This document shows, piece by piece, positions 46,235 to 52,370 of a stretch of DNA of 52,370 nucleotides (its first letter is position 1; each line of letters begins with the position of its first letter). A program made the translations under genes and the position numbers. The stretch is from assembly GCA_025062155.1 (NCBI GenBank), contig JANXAM010000017.1, positions 1-52,370 on the forward strand, written 5' to 3'. The notes under the pieces are model-generated. The model was not told the DNA's origin and did no database searches. It worked only from the letters and a program-made list of their open reading frames with translations. The DNA comes from Gloeomargarita sp. SKYB120. Lineage in GTDB: Bacteria; Cyanobacteriota; Cyanobacteriia; Gloeomargaritales; Gloeomargaritaceae.

Positions 46235-47452
46235 TCAGGTACTCCGTAACGCGACGATGGGGTCCAACTGGGCGGCCCGCTGCGCCGGTGCGACGCCAAA
46301 GACCAGGCCAATCGTTCCCGATACCCCCACCGCCAGGATGACAGCTTCCCAGGACACCTGCGCCTGCAACGGGGTCACCCAGCCAATGCCGATGAGCCCC
46401 AGCGTTCCCACGGCGGTACCCAAGATACCCCCCGCCACGGCGAGCACGATGGCTTCCAGTAAGAATTGCTGGAGAATATCTCCTTCTGTAGCCCCCACCG
46501 CCTTACGTAAACCAATTTCCTGGGTACGTTCTGTCACCGAAACCAGCATGATATTCATGATCCCAATCCCGCCCACCAACAGCGAAATCCCTGCCGTTGC
46601 CGCAAGTAAGATGGTCAACACCCCCGTGATATTGCCCGCAATCGCCACGGCTTCTTTTTGGGTGCGAATGTAGAAATCGTCTTCGTCCACAATCTTGTGC
46701 CGGCGGCGGAGCAGGTTGGTGATTTGGAATTGGGCGGCGCTCACACTAGCTTCATCCCGCGCCGAGACGGAAATGAACGCCACCGTTAACCCGTAGGGCG
46801 ACCGGCGGCCCGTGAGTTGATAGGCCATCGTCGTTAGGGGAATGTAAGCCGCGTCGTCCCGGTTCGTTCCGAGAAAGGCCCCTTTAGGCGCTAGGACCCC
46901 AATCACTTCAAAGCTCAGGTTGCGCAGCCGGATACGTTCACCGAGAGGAGAGCGGTTGCCAAACAGTTTAGTTGCCAAGTCGCTCCCTAACACCACAACC
47001 CGCCCTTGCCGCTGGACATCCAGTTCATGGAACAACCGGCCCTGTTGCAAGTCAAAACTTTGCACCCGGAAAAAGTCGGGCACGGTGCCAGTGACAGCAG
47101 TGGGCGTCGTGCGGTTGCCATAGCTCGCTAGGGCGCTCTCGTTGATTTGGGCGGCAACCCAGCGGACGGTAGGAACTTGGGCGGCGATGGCTTGGGCATC
47201 TTCCCAGGTGAGGGTCGCAGGTGGTTCAATGCCCCGGCGGCGCGCATCCTCCCGTCCCGGCACAACAAACAACACGTGGGTCCCCAACGATGCCAGTTGT
47301 TCGGCGGTATAGCGCTGGGCGGCCTGTCCCACCCCCACCATGGCGATCACGGCAGCATTGCCGATGACAATCCCCAACACGGTGAGAAAACTCCGCAAGC
47401 GGTGGGCGGCCAACGCCCGGAGCGCCATGCTTAAAGATTCGCGAATCTCCAT
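46235..47452 (-). CDS. MacB/FtsX-type ABC transporter permease
   Basis: 405 residues. The first membrane helix (LRSFLTVLGIVIGNAAVIAM) is followed by a MacB periplasmic core domain of about 200 residues and three C-terminal helices with the GIGIMNIMLVSVTERTQEIG signature of FtsX-like permeases. It works with the ATPase just downstream. Its start is 142 bp from the divergent ftsZ start, so the two share a control region. Confidence 0.92.
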   Translation of the reverse strand: MEIRESLSMALRALAAHRLRSFLTVLGIVIGNAAVIAMVGVGQAAQRYTAEQLASLGTHVLFVVPGREDARRRGIEPPATLTWEDAQAIAAQVPTVRWVAAQINESALASYGNRTTPTAVTGTVPDFFRVQSFDLQQGRLFHELDVQRQGRVVVLGSDLATKLFGNRSPLGERIRLRNLSFEVIGVLAPKGAFLGTNRDDAAYIPLTTMAYQLTGRRSPYGLTVAFISVSARDEASVSAAQFQITNLLRRRHKIVDEDDFYIRTQKEAVAIAGNITGVLTILLAATAGISLLVGGIGIMNIMLVSVTERTQEIGLRKAVGATEGDILQQFLLEAIVLAVAGGILGTAVGTLGLIGIGWVTPLQAQVSWEAVILAVGVSGTIGLVFGVAPAQRAAQLDPIVALRST

Positions 47453-47594
47453 CGGACTGGGGCCGTAAAGTCGTTACAACGCAGGAGAAAGAGTTGGTGG
47501 GGAGAGTTTCTTTTTTCCGAAAGACCCTCTAATATGTTAGGGATAATAAAACGGCTCTGGGCGACTGGAGCAACTGCACACCTTTGGGGAGATA
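47453..47594. promoter_or_regulatory. Intergenic control region, ftsZ and ABC exporter
   Basis: A 142-bp divergent spacer. CTAATATGTTAG is a small dyad at 47528-47539, followed by GGGATAATAAAA, a good match to a -10 box (GATAAT) for ftsZ. Ribosome-binding GGGGAGA lies just before the ATG at 47595. Confidence 0.4.
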
Positions 47595-48836
47595 ATGTCC
47601 ATTCAAGAGGACAACAGGCCGGCGGGTGAGCCGGGGACTCTGGCCTCCACCCCAGCAAATGAAACCCTATTGGCGCACGGGGACGTGAAGGCTATGTCTA
47701 TTCATCAGGCTGAGGCGGTGACCTACGGGAATGACATCGTACCCGGCCATCTAGCGCGGATTAAAGTCATTGGGGTTGGTGGTGGGGGCGGCAATGCCGT
47801 CAACCGCATGATCCAGAGCAATCTAACGGGGGTGGAATTTTGGATTATCAACACAGATGCCCAGGCCCTACACCACTGTTCGCCGAACGCCAAACGACTG
47901 CAAATCGGTCAAAAACTCACCCGCGGTCTCGGGGCTGGCGGTAACCCCGCCATAGGGCAAAAAGCGGCGGAGGAATCTCGCGACGAAATTATGGCCGCCC
48001 TGGACCAGTCGGATTTGGTGTTCATTACAGCGGGGATGGGCGGCGGCACTGGAACTGGCGCTGCGCCTATTGTGGCGGAAGTTGCCAAGGAACTGGGAGC
48101 TTTGACCGTTGCGATTGTCACCCGGCCGTTTACCTTTGAAGGCAAGCGGCGAGCGGCTCAGGCGGAAGAGGGCATCGCCATGCTCCAGAGCCGGGTGGAT
48201 ACCCTGATCGTCATTCCCAACGACCGCCTACTGACCACGATTGGGGAATCTACCCCGGTGCAGGAAGCCTTTCGGGTGGCGGATGACATCCTGCGCCAGG
48301 GGGTCCAGGGCATTTCCGACATCATCACGATTCCGGGCCTAGTCAACGTGGACTTTGCCGATGTGAAGGCAATCATGGCCGATGCCGGGTCGGCGCTCAT
48401 GGGGATTGGTACGGGCACGGGCAAAGGCCGGGCGGCGGAAGCAGCTAATATGGCGATTGCGTCACCCTTGCTGGAGTCGTCGATTCACGGGGCCAAGGGC
48501 GTGCTGTTCAATATCACGGGGGGCAGCGACTTGAGTTTACACGAGGTCAATACGGCGGCGGAGATCATTTACAACGTAGTGGACCCTGAGGCGAATATCA
48601 TTTTTGGCGCGGTGTTGGACGACCGGTTGCAGGGGGAAGTGCGGATCACGGTGATCGCCACTGGCTTTCAACCAACCACCAGTACAGGGCCCATGCCCCG
48701 GCCCCAGCCAGCAGTCCGCCCAGTGACTCCGGCGCCCGCTACGCCCCCCAGCGTGGAGATGCCGCCCAAAGTCGAGGAGCCACCGCCGGAAATTGACATT
48801 CCCGATTTCCTGAAACGGCGGCGGCCACGGCGCTAG
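47595..48836 (+). CDS. ftsZ: Cell division protein FtsZ
   Basis: 413 residues. The first 50 form a variable, probably disordered extension. Then the tubulin-like GTPase: [15 protein letters not shown], signature [12 protein letters not shown], and T7 loop [12 protein letters not shown] proline-rich linker leads to the C-terminal peptide [11 protein letters not shown], which recruits SepF/ZipN-like anchors. FtsZ polymerises as the division ring. An internal ATG at 47694 could be a second start. Confidence 0.97.
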
Positions 48837-48905
48837 GGCTAGCCATTTTGGGGGAATGGCCCCGCCAGAGTGCTACGATGGCAGGTAGAGCGTTGCCAGG
48901 GTGAG

Positions 48906-49898
48906 ATGGTGTTGCCAGCATCCCGTCCTTTGCCGTTAGCGGCGCCGGTTGCGACGGACCACGGTCGCTTGCGTCTCTTTGCAGGTTCGGCCAATGTTCC
49001 CCTTGCCGAAGAAATTGCTCGCTATCTCGGTGTGGACTTGGGGCCGATTGTGCGCAAACGCTTTTCCGACGGCGAGCTATACGTCCAAATTCAGGAATCG
49101 GTGCGAGGATGCGATGTTTACCTGCTGCAACCGACCTGTCATCCGGTCAACGACCACTTGATGGAACTGCTGATCATGATTGATGCCTGCCGGCGGGCGT
49201 CGGCGCGCCAGATTACGGCGGTGATCCCCTACTACGGTTACGCGCGGGCGGACCGGAAAACGGCGGGTCGCGAGGCGATTACCGCCAAGCTCGTGGCCAA
49301 TCTCATCACCGAAGCAGGGGCCAGCCGGATCCTGGCAATGGATTTGCATGTGGCCCAAATTCAAGCCTACTTTGACATCCCCTTTGACCACGTCTATGCC
49401 AGCAATGTCCTACAGCAGTACATCCTCAGCAAGGGGCTTACAGATTTTGTAGTTGTGTCGCCGGACGTGGGCGGCGTAGCGCGGGCGAGAGCTTTTGCCA
49501 AAAAGCTTAACGATGCCCCCTTGGCCATCATCGACAAGCGCCGGCAAGGCCATAATGTGGCGGAGGTGCTCAACGTCATCGGCGATGTGCGGGGCAAAAC
49601 CGCAATCATTGTGGATGACATGATTGACACCGGCGGCACGATGACCGAGGGCGCGCGGCTGTTGATGGAACACGGAGCCCAAGCGGTGTACGCCTGTGCA
49701 ACCCATGCCGTGTTTTCGGGGCAGGCGCCGCAGGTGTTGGCCAACAGCCTATTTACGGAAGTCATCGTCACCAACACCATCCCGATACCGCCGGAAAAGT
49801 GGTTTCCCCAGCTCAAAGTCCTGTCAGTGGCGAATGTGCTTGGGGAAGCTATCTGGCGGGTGCACGAGGACAGCTCGGTGAGTAGTATGTTTCGTTAA
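48906..49898 (+). CDS. prs: Ribose-phosphate pyrophosphokinase
   Basis: About 330 residues from MVLPASRPLPL. Family motifs are RLFAGSANVPLAEEIARYLG, FSDGELYVQI, MDLHVAQIQAYFD, SPDVGGVARARAFAK and the PRPP loop IIVDDMIDTGGTM. It makes PRPP from ribose 5-phosphate and ATP for nucleotides, His and Trp. It follows ftsZ on the same strand by about 70 bp; a GCCATT/AATGGC stem at 48842-48860 lies between them without a T-run. Confidence 0.95.
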   Translation: MVLPASRPLPLAAPVATDHGRLRLFAGSANVPLAEEIARYLGVDLGPIVRKRFSDGELYVQIQESVRGCDVYLLQPTCHPVNDHLMELLIMIDACRRASARQITAVIPYYGYARADRKTAGREAITAKLVANLITEAGASRILAMDLHVAQIQAYFDIPFDHVYASNVLQQYILSKGLTDFVVVSPDVGGVARARAFAKKLNDAPLAIIDKRRQGHNVAEVLNVIGDVRGKTAIIVDDMIDTGGTMTEGARLLMEHGAQAVYACATHAVFSGQAPQVLANSLFTEVIVTNTIPIPPEKWFPQLKVLSVANVLGEAIWRVHEDSSVSSMFR

Positions 49899-49966
49899 AA
49901 AGGGTTGCCGGAGGGGTTCCCACAGGGGTAAAGTCGCATCAAGCAGTGTTTGCCGAGGTCGGTGCT

Positions 49967-50401
49967 ATGGAACCGGAAACCCATCCGCTCGAAAATCAGG
50001 AAAACCAGGAAACGCCGCCGGTAGAAAGCACGCCGGCTCCCGAGGCAGCAACCCATGTCTCGCCGCCCAAGAGCAGAGCCAGCGCGGTGGTGGACTCTTT
50101 GCGCCATACGCTGACAGATTCCCTGAGTGTTTTGGGGCCGACCTGGCAAAAGGTGCAGGCCTTTTTTGGGGAACAGCGGCGCACCATCAGCGCCGTCGTG
50201 GTTGTGGCTTTGGCGGTGCTGCTCCTGGCGCTGGTGTCAGGGGTCCTGGGCATCATCAATGCCATCCCGCTCCTGCCGGCGGTGTTGGAACTGTTGGGCC
50301 TGTGGTACGTCTTGCGGTACCTGCTGATGGCAGACTCCCGCCGGGCGGTGCTCCAGGAACTGAACGAGTTTATCGGCAAGGTCACCGGTCAACAGTCGTA
50401 A
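49967..50401 (+). CDS. CAAD-domain membrane protein
   Basis: 144 residues. An acidic, proline-rich N terminus is followed by two adjacent membrane helices (TISAVVVVALAVLLLALVSG and PLLPAVLELLGLWYVLRYLL) and a short amphipathic tail. This is the CAAD module, found either alone or fused to aminoacyl-tRNA synthetases in cyanobacteria, where it anchors them in thylakoid membranes; the stand-alone form curves membranes like plant CURT1. The GTG of the next gene follows the stop directly. Confidence 0.85.
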   Translation: MEPETHPLENQENQETPPVESTPAPEAATHVSPPKSRASAVVDSLRHTLTDSLSVLGPTWQKVQAFFGEQRRTISAVVVVALAVLLLALVSGVLGIINAIPLLPAVLELLGLWYVLRYLLMADSRRAVLQELNEFIGKVTGQQS

Positions 50402-50899
50402 GTGCTGGAAACGTTTCGCCAGAAATACCCACTGGGGTGCCTGACCAGTGAGTTGCTGCAAATTCACCAGGGGCAATACCTGGTGCGAGTGACGGTGCAG
50501 GTGGGCGGTGTGACCTTGGCCACGGGGTTGGGTAGTGGGGGCAGCATCGAAGCGGCCGAGGACCGAGCTAGGGAGCGGGCGTTGATGGCCCTAGGTCTCA
50601 GCCCTAAGGAAACACCGCGTCCAGCCCCGCCGACCACTGAACCTGAACCCGTGGCGGTTCCCACGACTCCGGCTGCACCCGAGGAGACGCCGTCCAAGCT
50701 CGATATGCTAGATATTCTGGCCCAGACTACCGCTGAGATGAAGCGACTCGGCTGGACCAACGCTCAAGGACGGGAGTACCTACGACGCACCTATGGTCGG
50801 AACAGTCGCCAAGAATTGAGCGACCAGGAGCTGCTGGACTTTTTGAATTACCTGCGCAGTCAACCCAGTGGGAACGGCCCCTTGCCGTCAATCAGTTAG
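50402..50899 (+). CDS. Conserved cyanobacterial protein, dsRBD-like N terminus
   Basis: 165 residues, GTG start immediately after the CAAD stop. The first 65 residues (YPLGCLTSELLQIHQGQYLV, TLATGLGSGGSIEAAEDRAR) resemble a double-stranded RNA-binding or Rad52-like fold. A proline-rich linker leads to a helical C domain with EMKRLGWTNAQGREYLRRTY. Families of this layout are known in cyanobacteria without a firm function. Its end overlaps the next, convergent gene by 8 bp. Confidence 0.7.
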   Translation: MLETFRQKYPLGCLTSELLQIHQGQYLVRVTVQVGGVTLATGLGSGGSIEAAEDRARERALMALGLSPKETPRPAPPTTEPEPVAVPTTPAAPEETPSKLDMLDILAQTTAEMKRLGWTNAQGREYLRRTYGRNSRQELSDQELLDFLNYLRSQPSGNGPLPSIS

Positions 50900-51533
50900 A
50901 CGTTGGGCTAGGGGTTGGCGTGGATGGCACCGGCTCCAGGGCAATATCCCGCAGCTCGATAAAGGGAATGGTTTGACCCACCTCCGTCAGTCCCACCCGC
51001 ACTTTCCCTAGCCGGACAGGAACTTTCACCCGCACAGCGGTCGCTTGGTTCCCTGGTGCCAGTTGCACGGGTAATCCCTCCACTTCCACCTCCAGGATTT
51101 CACCCTGGGCATTGCGCACAATGAATTGCCGCTGGACTTGCACCGCCGTCGCCCGCTCATTCTGGATGCGCAATCGCAGGATGGCCTGGTCCCCTTGCCG
51201 GTCAATCGCCTCCAACGCCATGTAAATGCCACCCTCCTGGAGTGCCAGCAGCGGCAGGCGAACAGCAGGGTCCGCAGGGGCTGGCGAGTTTGGGCGTACA
51301 GTACTGGTCCCCATTAACGCCTGCACCTGTTGGATGATAGTGTCTTCGGTCAATAGGACAAAAGGCTGAGGGTCCTTATCTGGCGTAACCGGGTTCAACG
51401 TCGGTTGCCGGACTTTACTCAGGGCCTCCTGCCCCAGTCGATACCCCAGCCAGACAGCGATTCCCCCTACGACCAGAGCCGCTATTGTAAAACCCAGGGT
51501 CACCACGCCGACCCACCGCTGCGTTCGCGCCAT
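50892..51533 (-). CDS. Membrane-anchored protein of unknown function
   Basis: About 213 residues from MARTQRWVGVVTLGFTIAAL. One membrane helix near the N terminus, then an extracytoplasmic domain rich in beta strands (LQEGGIYMALEAIDRQGDQA and VGQTIPFIELRDIALEPV). The frame continues 14 codons upstream to 51575, but that start would lie inside tRNA-Met, so the ATG at 51533 is chosen. No family recognised. Confidence 0.7.
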   Translation of the reverse strand: MARTQRWVGVVTLGFTIAALVVGGIAVWLGYRLGQEALSKVRQPTLNPVTPDKDPQPFVLLTEDTIIQQVQALMGTSTVRPNSPAPADPAVRLPLLALQEGGIYMALEAIDRQGDQAILRLRIQNERATAVQVQRQFIVRNAQGEILEVEVEGLPVQLAPGNQATAVRVKVPVRLGKVRVGLTEVGQTIPFIELRDIALEPVPSTPTPSPTSN

Positions 51534-51570
51534 GAGTTTGTTAAGATAGCCTTTGCCATTGTAATCATTT

Positions 51571-51643
51571 TGCACGAGTGGCCGACTGGTAGGGCAAGCG
51601 ACTCATAATCGCCGGTATGTGGGTTCAAATCCCACCTCGTGCA
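51571..51643 (+). tRNA. tRNA-Met(CAU)
   Basis: 73 nt. Acceptor TGCACGA/TCGTGCA, D stem GCC/GGC, anticodon loop CTCATAA with anticodon CAT, and T arm GTGGG-TTCAAAT-CCCAC pair well; the top pair of the anticodon stem is an A-C mismatch. Acceptor starts with a T-A pair, so it is an elongator Met or, less likely, the lysidine-modified Ile tRNA, not initiator. CCA is not encoded. A Tn7-like element end begins 13 bp downstream. Confidence 0.93.
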
Positions 51644-51656
51644 TCGGTTGTTGTAC

Positions 51657-51721
51657 TGTACAATCCAGAATTATCTGACACCAATCCAAAATTGATGTCC
51701 GTTTTCCAGAATTGATGTCCG
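51657..51721. repeat. Transposon terminus with three TnsB-type binding repeats
   Basis: The end starts TGTACA. Three related repeats follow: CCAGAATTATCTGACACC (51665-51682), CCAAAATTGATGTCCG (51686-51701) and CCAGAATTGATGTCCG (51706-51721), with a period of 20-21 bp. TGTACA ends and AATTA-type repeats with this spacing are the layout of V-K CAST ends in memory, and the AATTATCTG string also occurs in the ShCAST end. Confidence 0.88.
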
Positions 51722-51740
51722 CATGACGGCTGGACAAGAT

Positions 51741-51757
51741 TTACCAAGTGCGTGCTC
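51741..51757 (-). other. Putative homing spacer directed at tRNA-Thr(GGU)
   Basis: The 17 nt after the last repeat read GAGCACGCACTTGGTAA on the minus strand. In tRNA-Thr(GGU) genes the D loop ends in GTA, followed by GAGC, the D-stem end, the anticodon stem and the loop TTGGTAA with anticodon GGT. The similarity stops just where the 3' anticodon stem should follow (ATCTT instead of GTGCG). Known V-K elements keep such a short, separately placed guide against a tRNA gene, with a GTN PAM in front. No tRNA-Thr lies in this window. Confidence 0.75.
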
Positions 51758-51928
51758 CTTTCACCCATCCTGCAGCATACTGCTCTTACCCGTCTAACCA
51801 CCGGCACTCTGCGAAGGCAGCCCCCCACTCTCCAAGCGGGAAGATAGCTGCACCAAGTGGCCGTATTCAGCAGCGACATGAGCGACTGTCCCTTTCACCC
51901 GTCCTTGGAGTGGGAAGGTGTCTGCACC
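51758..51928 (-). CRISPR. Degenerate V-K CRISPR array
   Basis: Three 37-nt repeat-like units on the minus strand. 51892-51928 (starts GGTGCAGACACCTTCCCACT, ends GGACGGGTGAAAG) looks canonical and resembles the ShCAST repeat in its CACC, TCCC and GGGTGAAAG positions. 51818-51854 (starts GGTGCAGCTATCTTCCCGCT) keeps the 5' half but ends in GGGGGGCTG. 51758-51794 keeps only the 3' half, GGATGGGTGAAAG. The spacer between the first two is exactly 37 nt (51855-51891); between the second and third lie 23 nt. A further repeat-like stretch, more decayed, occurs at about 51944-51993. Confidence 0.8.
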
Positions 51929-52004
51929 CCTTCAGCCTAGGACGCTCACCCTACCGGTGTTGTCGCCCCAGGTTTCGTGAAGGTGTGCTTACCTTCCTAC
52001 ATTA

Positions 52005-52054
52005 ACAGTATTTTGTCTTACAGACCCATCAGTATCTGCGTCCCAAAATACTGT
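52005..52054. repeat. Perfect 11-bp inverted repeat between array and tracrRNA
   Basis: ACAGTATTTTG at 52005-52015 is matched exactly by CAAAATACTGT at 52044-52054, with 28 bp between, which themselves contain CAGTATCTG, an echo of the half-site. Position and AT content suit an operator or promoter region for the array, possibly bound by a small MerR-type regulator such as the CvkR proteins of V-K elements. It could also act as a hairpin ending the tracrRNA transcript. Confidence 0.6.
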
Positions 52055-52074
52055 CCCGCTTGTGTAGGTGGATT

Positions 52075-52118
52075 TTCGTGAACCCCCTGGCCCACGCAGG
52101 GTCGCAACGGTTCACGAA
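52075..52118. repeat. Two-step hairpin after the tracrRNA anti-repeat
   Basis: TTCGTGAACC at 52075-52084 pairs with GGTTCACGAA at 52109-52118; inside it CCCTG (52085-52089) pairs with CAGGG (52097-52101) around a 7-nt loop. It immediately follows the anti-repeat in the minus-strand direction. It may fold as the 3' end of the tracrRNA precursor or be a first, strongly altered repeat of the array (TTCACGAAA also occurs near 51977). Confidence 0.65.
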
Positions 52119-52352
52119 CTAGCCAGGATGGGTCCCCCTTGAGCGGGGGTGATTCGGCGACCGCCGCTCCGGTTAGCCCGTTCCCTCTTGCTGGGTGCGC
52201 ACCTGGTCTCAGTCCCGCAAACAAGGACTGACAGCTTCGGGGTGGACAGTCGCCAGGGGCAGAAAGCACGACCGCTTACCGGCGGCCAAACAACCCCACA
52301 CTTATCACAGACCAGTGGCTTTGGGGAGCTTGGTCTGCGGCGCTGTTGATGT
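52119..52352 (-). ncRNA. Cas12k tracrRNA
   Basis: On the minus strand the blocks AACAGCGCCGCAG, GCTTTCTGCCCCTGG (52253-52267), GGTGCGCACCCAGCAA (52188-52203) and GAATCACCCCCG-TCAAGGGGG (52134-52155) appear in the same order and spacing as in the ShCAST tracrRNA as I remember it. Variable parts keep pairing: GCAGACCA with TGGTCTG, and CCGCC-GGTAA-GCGG. The anti-repeat ACCCATCCTG (52124-52133) is perfectly complementary to the 3' part of the repeat at 51763-51772. The 5' end is approximate. About 230 nt, typical for this RNA. Confidence 0.9.
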
Positions 52353-52370
52353 TCTGATTCGGTTGTCCAG

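Follow-up and report, generated by a model that had tools for sequence, protein, structure and literature searches.

The window (the whole stretch of DNA analysed, 52,370 nt) constitutes one entire contig (C17, ending at 52370) of an assembly (G000) of 2.48 Mb in 91 contigs, which is 96.4% complete. Judging from the genus it shares with other genomes, the host would be a Gloeomargarita-type cyanobacterium; the genomes used for comparison were Gloeomargaritales cyanobacterium VI4D9 (G001; OV696605.1), of the same genus, together with G002, G003 (same genus), the sister genome G006 and G019. A tRNA-Met gene lies near the end of the contig and, as judged from sequence comparison, the segment that follows it (51657-52370) is confirmed as the tRNA-proximal (left) end of a type V-K CRISPR-associated transposon (CAST), with the following features.

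51571-51645, plus strand: tRNA-Met(CAT), the attachment gene (ARAGORN; Rfam tRNA)
51589-51608, plus strand: PAM GTA (51589-51591) and 17-nt protospacer GGGCAAGCGACTCATAA (51592-51608), at the position of the anchor targets of other copies
51657-51720, plus strand: transposon left end, with TGTACA and three putative TnsB-type sites; 98% identical over 64 bp to the copy on G006:C187
51741-51757, minus strand: anchor spacer GAGCACGCACTTGGTAA, 17 nt, which fits the tRNA-Thr on C44 (2 mismatches) and not the adjacent tRNA-Met (7)
51758-51769, minus strand: truncated repeat R* (GATGGGTGAAAG), complementing the anti-repeat
51818-51928, minus strand: decayed array, with a repeat at 51928-51892 (37 nt), a spacer at 51891-51855 (37 nt) and a decayed repeat at about 51854-51818, delimited by eye against the G001 repeats
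52125-52133, minus strand: anti-repeat ACCCATCCT, exact complement of AGGATGGGT in R*
52126-52347, minus strand: Cas12k-type tracrRNA (covariance model; six covarying helices; 75% identity to the sequence that directly follows G001 cas12k)

Terminus, array and tracrRNA

The terminal TGTACA occupies 51657-51662, downstream of the tRNA-Met that ends at 51645, and is followed by three TnsB-like sites predicted by sequence at about 51664, 51685 and 51705 (spacing of 21 and 20 bp), so that the TGTACA and the three repeats of 20-21-bp period reported in a preliminary description of this DNA are indeed present at 51657-51720. The GTA PAM within the tRNA-Met gene lies 65 nt from TGTACA, inside the range of 46-82 nt given for the GTN PAM of these transposons (PMC9938897). 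The adjoining protospacer is the target that an anchor crRNA for this tRNA-Met would use, and an identical 17-mer serves as the anchor of the copy on G006:C187. The first 45-46 bp of the left end recur without change at the tRNA-Thr gene on C44.

Read on the minus strand, toward the tRNA, the remainder of the segment consists of a structured RNA, a 37-nt repeat, a 37-nt spacer, a repeat deprived of its 3' end, R* and a 17-nt spacer. The array is thus in reverse orientation and reduced to one full repeat, which aligns by eye with the 37-nt repeat of the G001 arrays, one spacer and one decayed repeat; the region is 98% identical, over 175 bp, in G006:C215, and its spacer yielded no exact 20-nt match in viral contigs. 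The common repeat ending of the preliminary description, GGGTGAAAG, is found on the minus strand at 51892-51900 and 51758-51766, where it closes the full repeat and R*, respectively. It is this repeat context that makes the motif significant, since as a bare 9-mer it is weak (3 copies in the window against 0.67 expected, a number reached in 5 of 100 shuffles); a third copy, at 51023, was attributed to chance. The pairing of anti-repeat and repeat that had also been described holds exactly.

The identity of the structured RNA, for which the preliminary description had named four ordered blocks shared with the ShCAST tracrRNA and had proposed a covariance model as a check, is backed by an independent model of this kind. 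Built from five sequences, none of them from the window, and trained only on RNAs located downstream of cas12k in other genomes, the model matches the window at 52347-52233 on the minus strand with 103 bits (E=1.4e-25), and the RNA hence passes that check; in 137 kb, the same model recovers the copies on C45 (1.7e-11) and G006:C187 (1.2e-4). Six helices, named from the fold of the window RNA, were also checked by eye on an alignment of eight sequences comprising the window RNA, sequences directly downstream of cas12k elsewhere and a second G000 copy (C45). In this alignment 97.5% of cells are paired and 13 pairs have changed on both sides, a degree of pairing equalled in none of 500 shuffles, while slid controls pair at 29-46%. 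The fold energy of the window RNA taken alone is unremarkable (z = -0.55), no Rfam family matches it, and a search of plasmids with the tracrRNA gave no match. Its orientation is that seen in G001. Unlike C45, it keeps all six helices, and no other RNA of the G000 set is as well preserved. These data support the view that the window RNA is homologous to the Cas12k tracrRNA, and it appears to be intact. A host CRISPR spacer in G006 (C222, 1271-1308) matches the tracrRNA gene of the window at 52184-52215 in 31 of 32 bases. This apparent immunity suggests that the host may fight the transposon.

Related elements in the Gloeomargaritales

The genome of VI4D9 contains two Cas12k genes, whose nearest solved relatives are the ShCas12k structures, and one of them belongs to a complete element. 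From a TGTACA end at about 155,988, this element runs through tnsB, tnsC (TniB/AAA), tniQ, cargo, a MerR gene, cas12k, tracrRNA, array and R* with its anchor to a second TGTACA end, and its anchor matches the flank after a GGTA PAM. Its Cas12k is 601 aa long and the element represents a candidate new orthologue. Both VI4D9 proteins are missing some 30 positions of the family profile (141-172) and are hence shorter forms of Cas12k. A direct repeat of 10 bases, ATTTCAGTTA (L101 5977-5989; L042 19880-19895), borders the complete element on both sides. The target duplication of V-K CASTs is 5 bp, and the VI4D9 direct repeat is longer.

The second VI4D9 CAST resides at the same tRNA-Met gene as that of the window, a site that is empty in G002 and G006; its tnsB is split over two frames and no TniQ match was obtained for it. 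A further locus, in G003 (C1, about 2669133-2687372), encodes TnsB and TniQ together with only the N-terminal third of a Cas12k (93% identical over 197 aa), and can be regarded as a further decaying V-K element.

The assignment of the window to the V-K family thus draws on the covariance model, the compensatory changes, the homologous RNA next to G001 cas12k and the complete G001 element, as well as on the occupied tRNA-Met site in G001, a Cas12k remnant on C45 and the location of anchor targets on fixed tRNA positions after GGTA. The central claim of the preliminary description, an end of a type V-K CAST beside tRNA-Met, is in this way borne out by terminus, TnsB-type sites, RNA and attachment geometry. 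The V-K family is present in this lineage, but a new working orthologue is not supported for G000, where a relic is more likely. V-K CASTs have been listed in seven orders, Gloeomargaritales not being among them (PMC9938897), and our literature search found no paper naming both Gloeomargarita and Cas12k. As far as could be checked, we are therefore dealing with a known kind of system in a new host order, and type V-K CASTs can now be placed in the Gloeomargaritales, outside that published list.

Element decay, anchor exchange and alternative readings

Going by its sequence, an intact element of this type would work through TnsB binding to the repeated end sites and through Cas12k which, with the tracrRNA and a short crRNA (the 17-nt anchor after R*), would recognise GTA and the part of the tRNA between D-arm and anticodon, so that the element would insert beside the tRNA, about 65 bp further downstream. 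G000 itself has no fewer than four left ends, each next to a different tRNA gene, and neither cas12k, tnsB or tniQ nor a right end was found in its assembly. The four lie at tRNA-Met (C17, the window), a second tRNA-Met (C51), tRNA-Thr (C44) and tRNA-Val (C45). The preliminary description had placed cas12k, tniQ, tnsC and tnsB to the right of the window, but the contig ends at 52370 and the assembly gave no match to Cas12k, TnsB or TniQ, and as far as intact genes are meant the placement is probably wrong. For Cas12k, profile searches and same-genus tblastn were negative in G000 and G006, while the same searches match other genomes; the transposition-gene searches of G000, which covered the TnsB C-domain and TniQ, were likewise negative there and in G006, and match G001, G003 and (with profiles) G019, TniQ being repeated with TniQ-carrying genomes as control. 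As for the right end, G000 holds no further cluster of the TnsB-site motif, by which a diverged right end could be missed. TnsB-like sites on C14 and C8, lying within two long reading frames that resemble each other, were dismissed as coincidence.

All copies that can be traced inward (C45, C51, G006:C187 and G006:C215) have lost cas12k or more. On C45, a C-terminal Cas12k remnant of about 25 codons next to the RNA gives way to a reading frame that is disrupted and unrelated; on C51 the RNA is gone and small genes are present; G006:C187 preserves no more than a trace of cas12k, beside another gene; and in G006:C215 the array runs straight into the gene found after the empty tRNA-Met site. On the other side of the array, C215 (200-610) bears a different left end and a different tRNA-Met, which its anchor matches exactly. 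The gene following the empty site in relatives is TPR-like by eye and is located in G000 on C13, next to another gene. No CAST sequence was found at that C13 junction, and the right flank may hence be rearranged.

Given that Cas12k, TnsB and TniQ are missing from both G000 and G006, that no right end was found, that the other copies are truncated and that the second repeat of the window is decayed, the copy in the window is probably, though by no means certainly, a defective V-K CAST relic of the Gloeomargarita lineage. Other copies, in G000 and its closest relative, keep the last cas12k codons at most. That the window copy is dead, and not just assembled in part, is our inference.

A difficulty for the relic reading concerns the anchor, whose misfit with the adjacent tRNA means that the junction may be a misjoin. 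The 17 nt after every R* match tRNA positions 21-37 (22-38 in the tRNA-Met of the window), after GGTA. Anchors fit their own neighbour on C45 (tRNA-Val, 1 mismatch), C51 (tRNA-Met, 2) and G006:C215 (tRNA-Met, none), but not in the window or on G006:C187, whose anchor matches the tRNA-Met of the window exactly and its own neighbour with 3 mismatches. A wobble pair would be kept at four of the five mismatches of the G000 anchors (with the window counted against tRNA-Thr), a number too small to support a conclusion. Such anchor swaps point to recombination between copies or to misjoined contigs, and either process is the likely source, on the sequences compared, of the tRNA-Thr anchor in the window.

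It is therefore a serious possibility, if one falling somewhat short of even, that the junction of tRNA-Met and transposon is an assembly chimera, and that the left end carrying the tRNA-Thr anchor has its true place at the tRNA-Thr gene on C44 or in a co-occurring relative. Besides the anchor itself, this is favoured by C44, which has the same first 46 bp next to tRNA-Thr before it stops, and by the 4.3 kb preceding the tRNA: identity to G006, about 97% as far as about 47.3 kb, drops sharply there to 70-84% and remains at that level until the tRNA and the transposon are reached (47300-51650), marking a recombination boundary or an assembly join. It is further favoured by C62, a 3.6-kb contig binned with G000 that ends in the same tRNA sequence; its identity to G006 is 99.55% over 2.2 kb, compared with 75% to the corresponding part of the window, and C62 is likely to be contamination or a second allele. 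On the other hand, the PAM-to-end distance of 65 nt at tRNA-Met is what a real insertion should show, the same tRNA-Met gene is occupied by a CAST in G001, and G006:C187 exhibits the same kind of swap in another assembly, as real recombination between copies would also produce. A chimeric junction is in any case compatible with a defective relic, and both can be true.

It seems to us rather unlikely that the contig would continue, on its right, into an intact and active V-K CAST whose body did not assemble or was left out of the bin because the sampled population contains several near-identical copies, even if several observations speak for it. The window RNA is well preserved and its six helices argue against long decay; the contig breaks where copies diverge, about 2 nt before the cas12k stop codon expected from C45, so that an intact gene may lie beyond; and the left ends hardly differ between copies, which would be expected if they had moved recently. 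Moreover, elements present in several copies are often lost from metagenome bins, and G000 is an assembly of 91 contigs. Against this, neither of two assemblies that are 96% (G000) and 98% (G006) complete contains Cas12k, TnsB or TniQ, no right-end sites occur beside unique flanks, and every copy traceable inward is truncated.

We attach little probability to the idea that solo left ends, which comprise TnsB sites, an anchor crRNA and, in some copies, a tracrRNA, persist at several tRNA genes in the absence of transposition machinery because they are functional, for instance by blocking new CAST insertions at these tRNAs or by moving only in the presence of a helper element. A chance structured region, with coincidental repeats and RNA resemblance, could appeal to the unremarkable fold energy and to the lack of an Rfam match, but is so improbable as to be negligible, being refuted by the covariance model, the compensatory changes, the synteny with G001 cas12k, the Cas12k remnant on C45 and the geometry of anchor and PAM. 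The tRNA-specific left ends, with different anchors but related arrays and RNAs, constitute a natural record of tRNA-target change and element decay.

Relationship to known transposons

The window shares with the VI4D9 CASTs a homologous tracrRNA (75%), the repeat 3' end GGGTGAAAG, an anchor after R*, a GGTA PAM and the TGTACA end. The VI4D9 elements differ in having cas12k and, in one copy, tnsB, tnsC, tniQ and a MerR gene, as well as a long array and both ends, and their left-end site motif is AATTTGGCAC, as opposed to TCCARAATTGATGTCC in the window. In the general plan of V-K CASTs, the left end lies downstream of a tRNA pointing at it, with a GTN PAM 46-82 nt away, R* precedes a 17-nt anchor, and array and tracrRNA are in reverse orientation (PMC9938897). 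The arrangement in the window and in G001 agrees with that of ShCAST and other V-K CASTs (PMC9938897), from which G000 departs in the lack of a detected cas12k, tnsB, tniQ or right end, in the decayed array and mismatched anchor of the window, and in a host order outside the published list. Type I CASTs (I-F3, I-B, I-D) also possess Tn7-like ends, and some of them use tRNA attachment sites as well (PMC11406308). Unlike the window, however, they are Cascade-based and have no tracrRNA, and types I-D and I-B2 target the tRNA by means of a TniQ/TnsD protein instead of an anchor crRNA.
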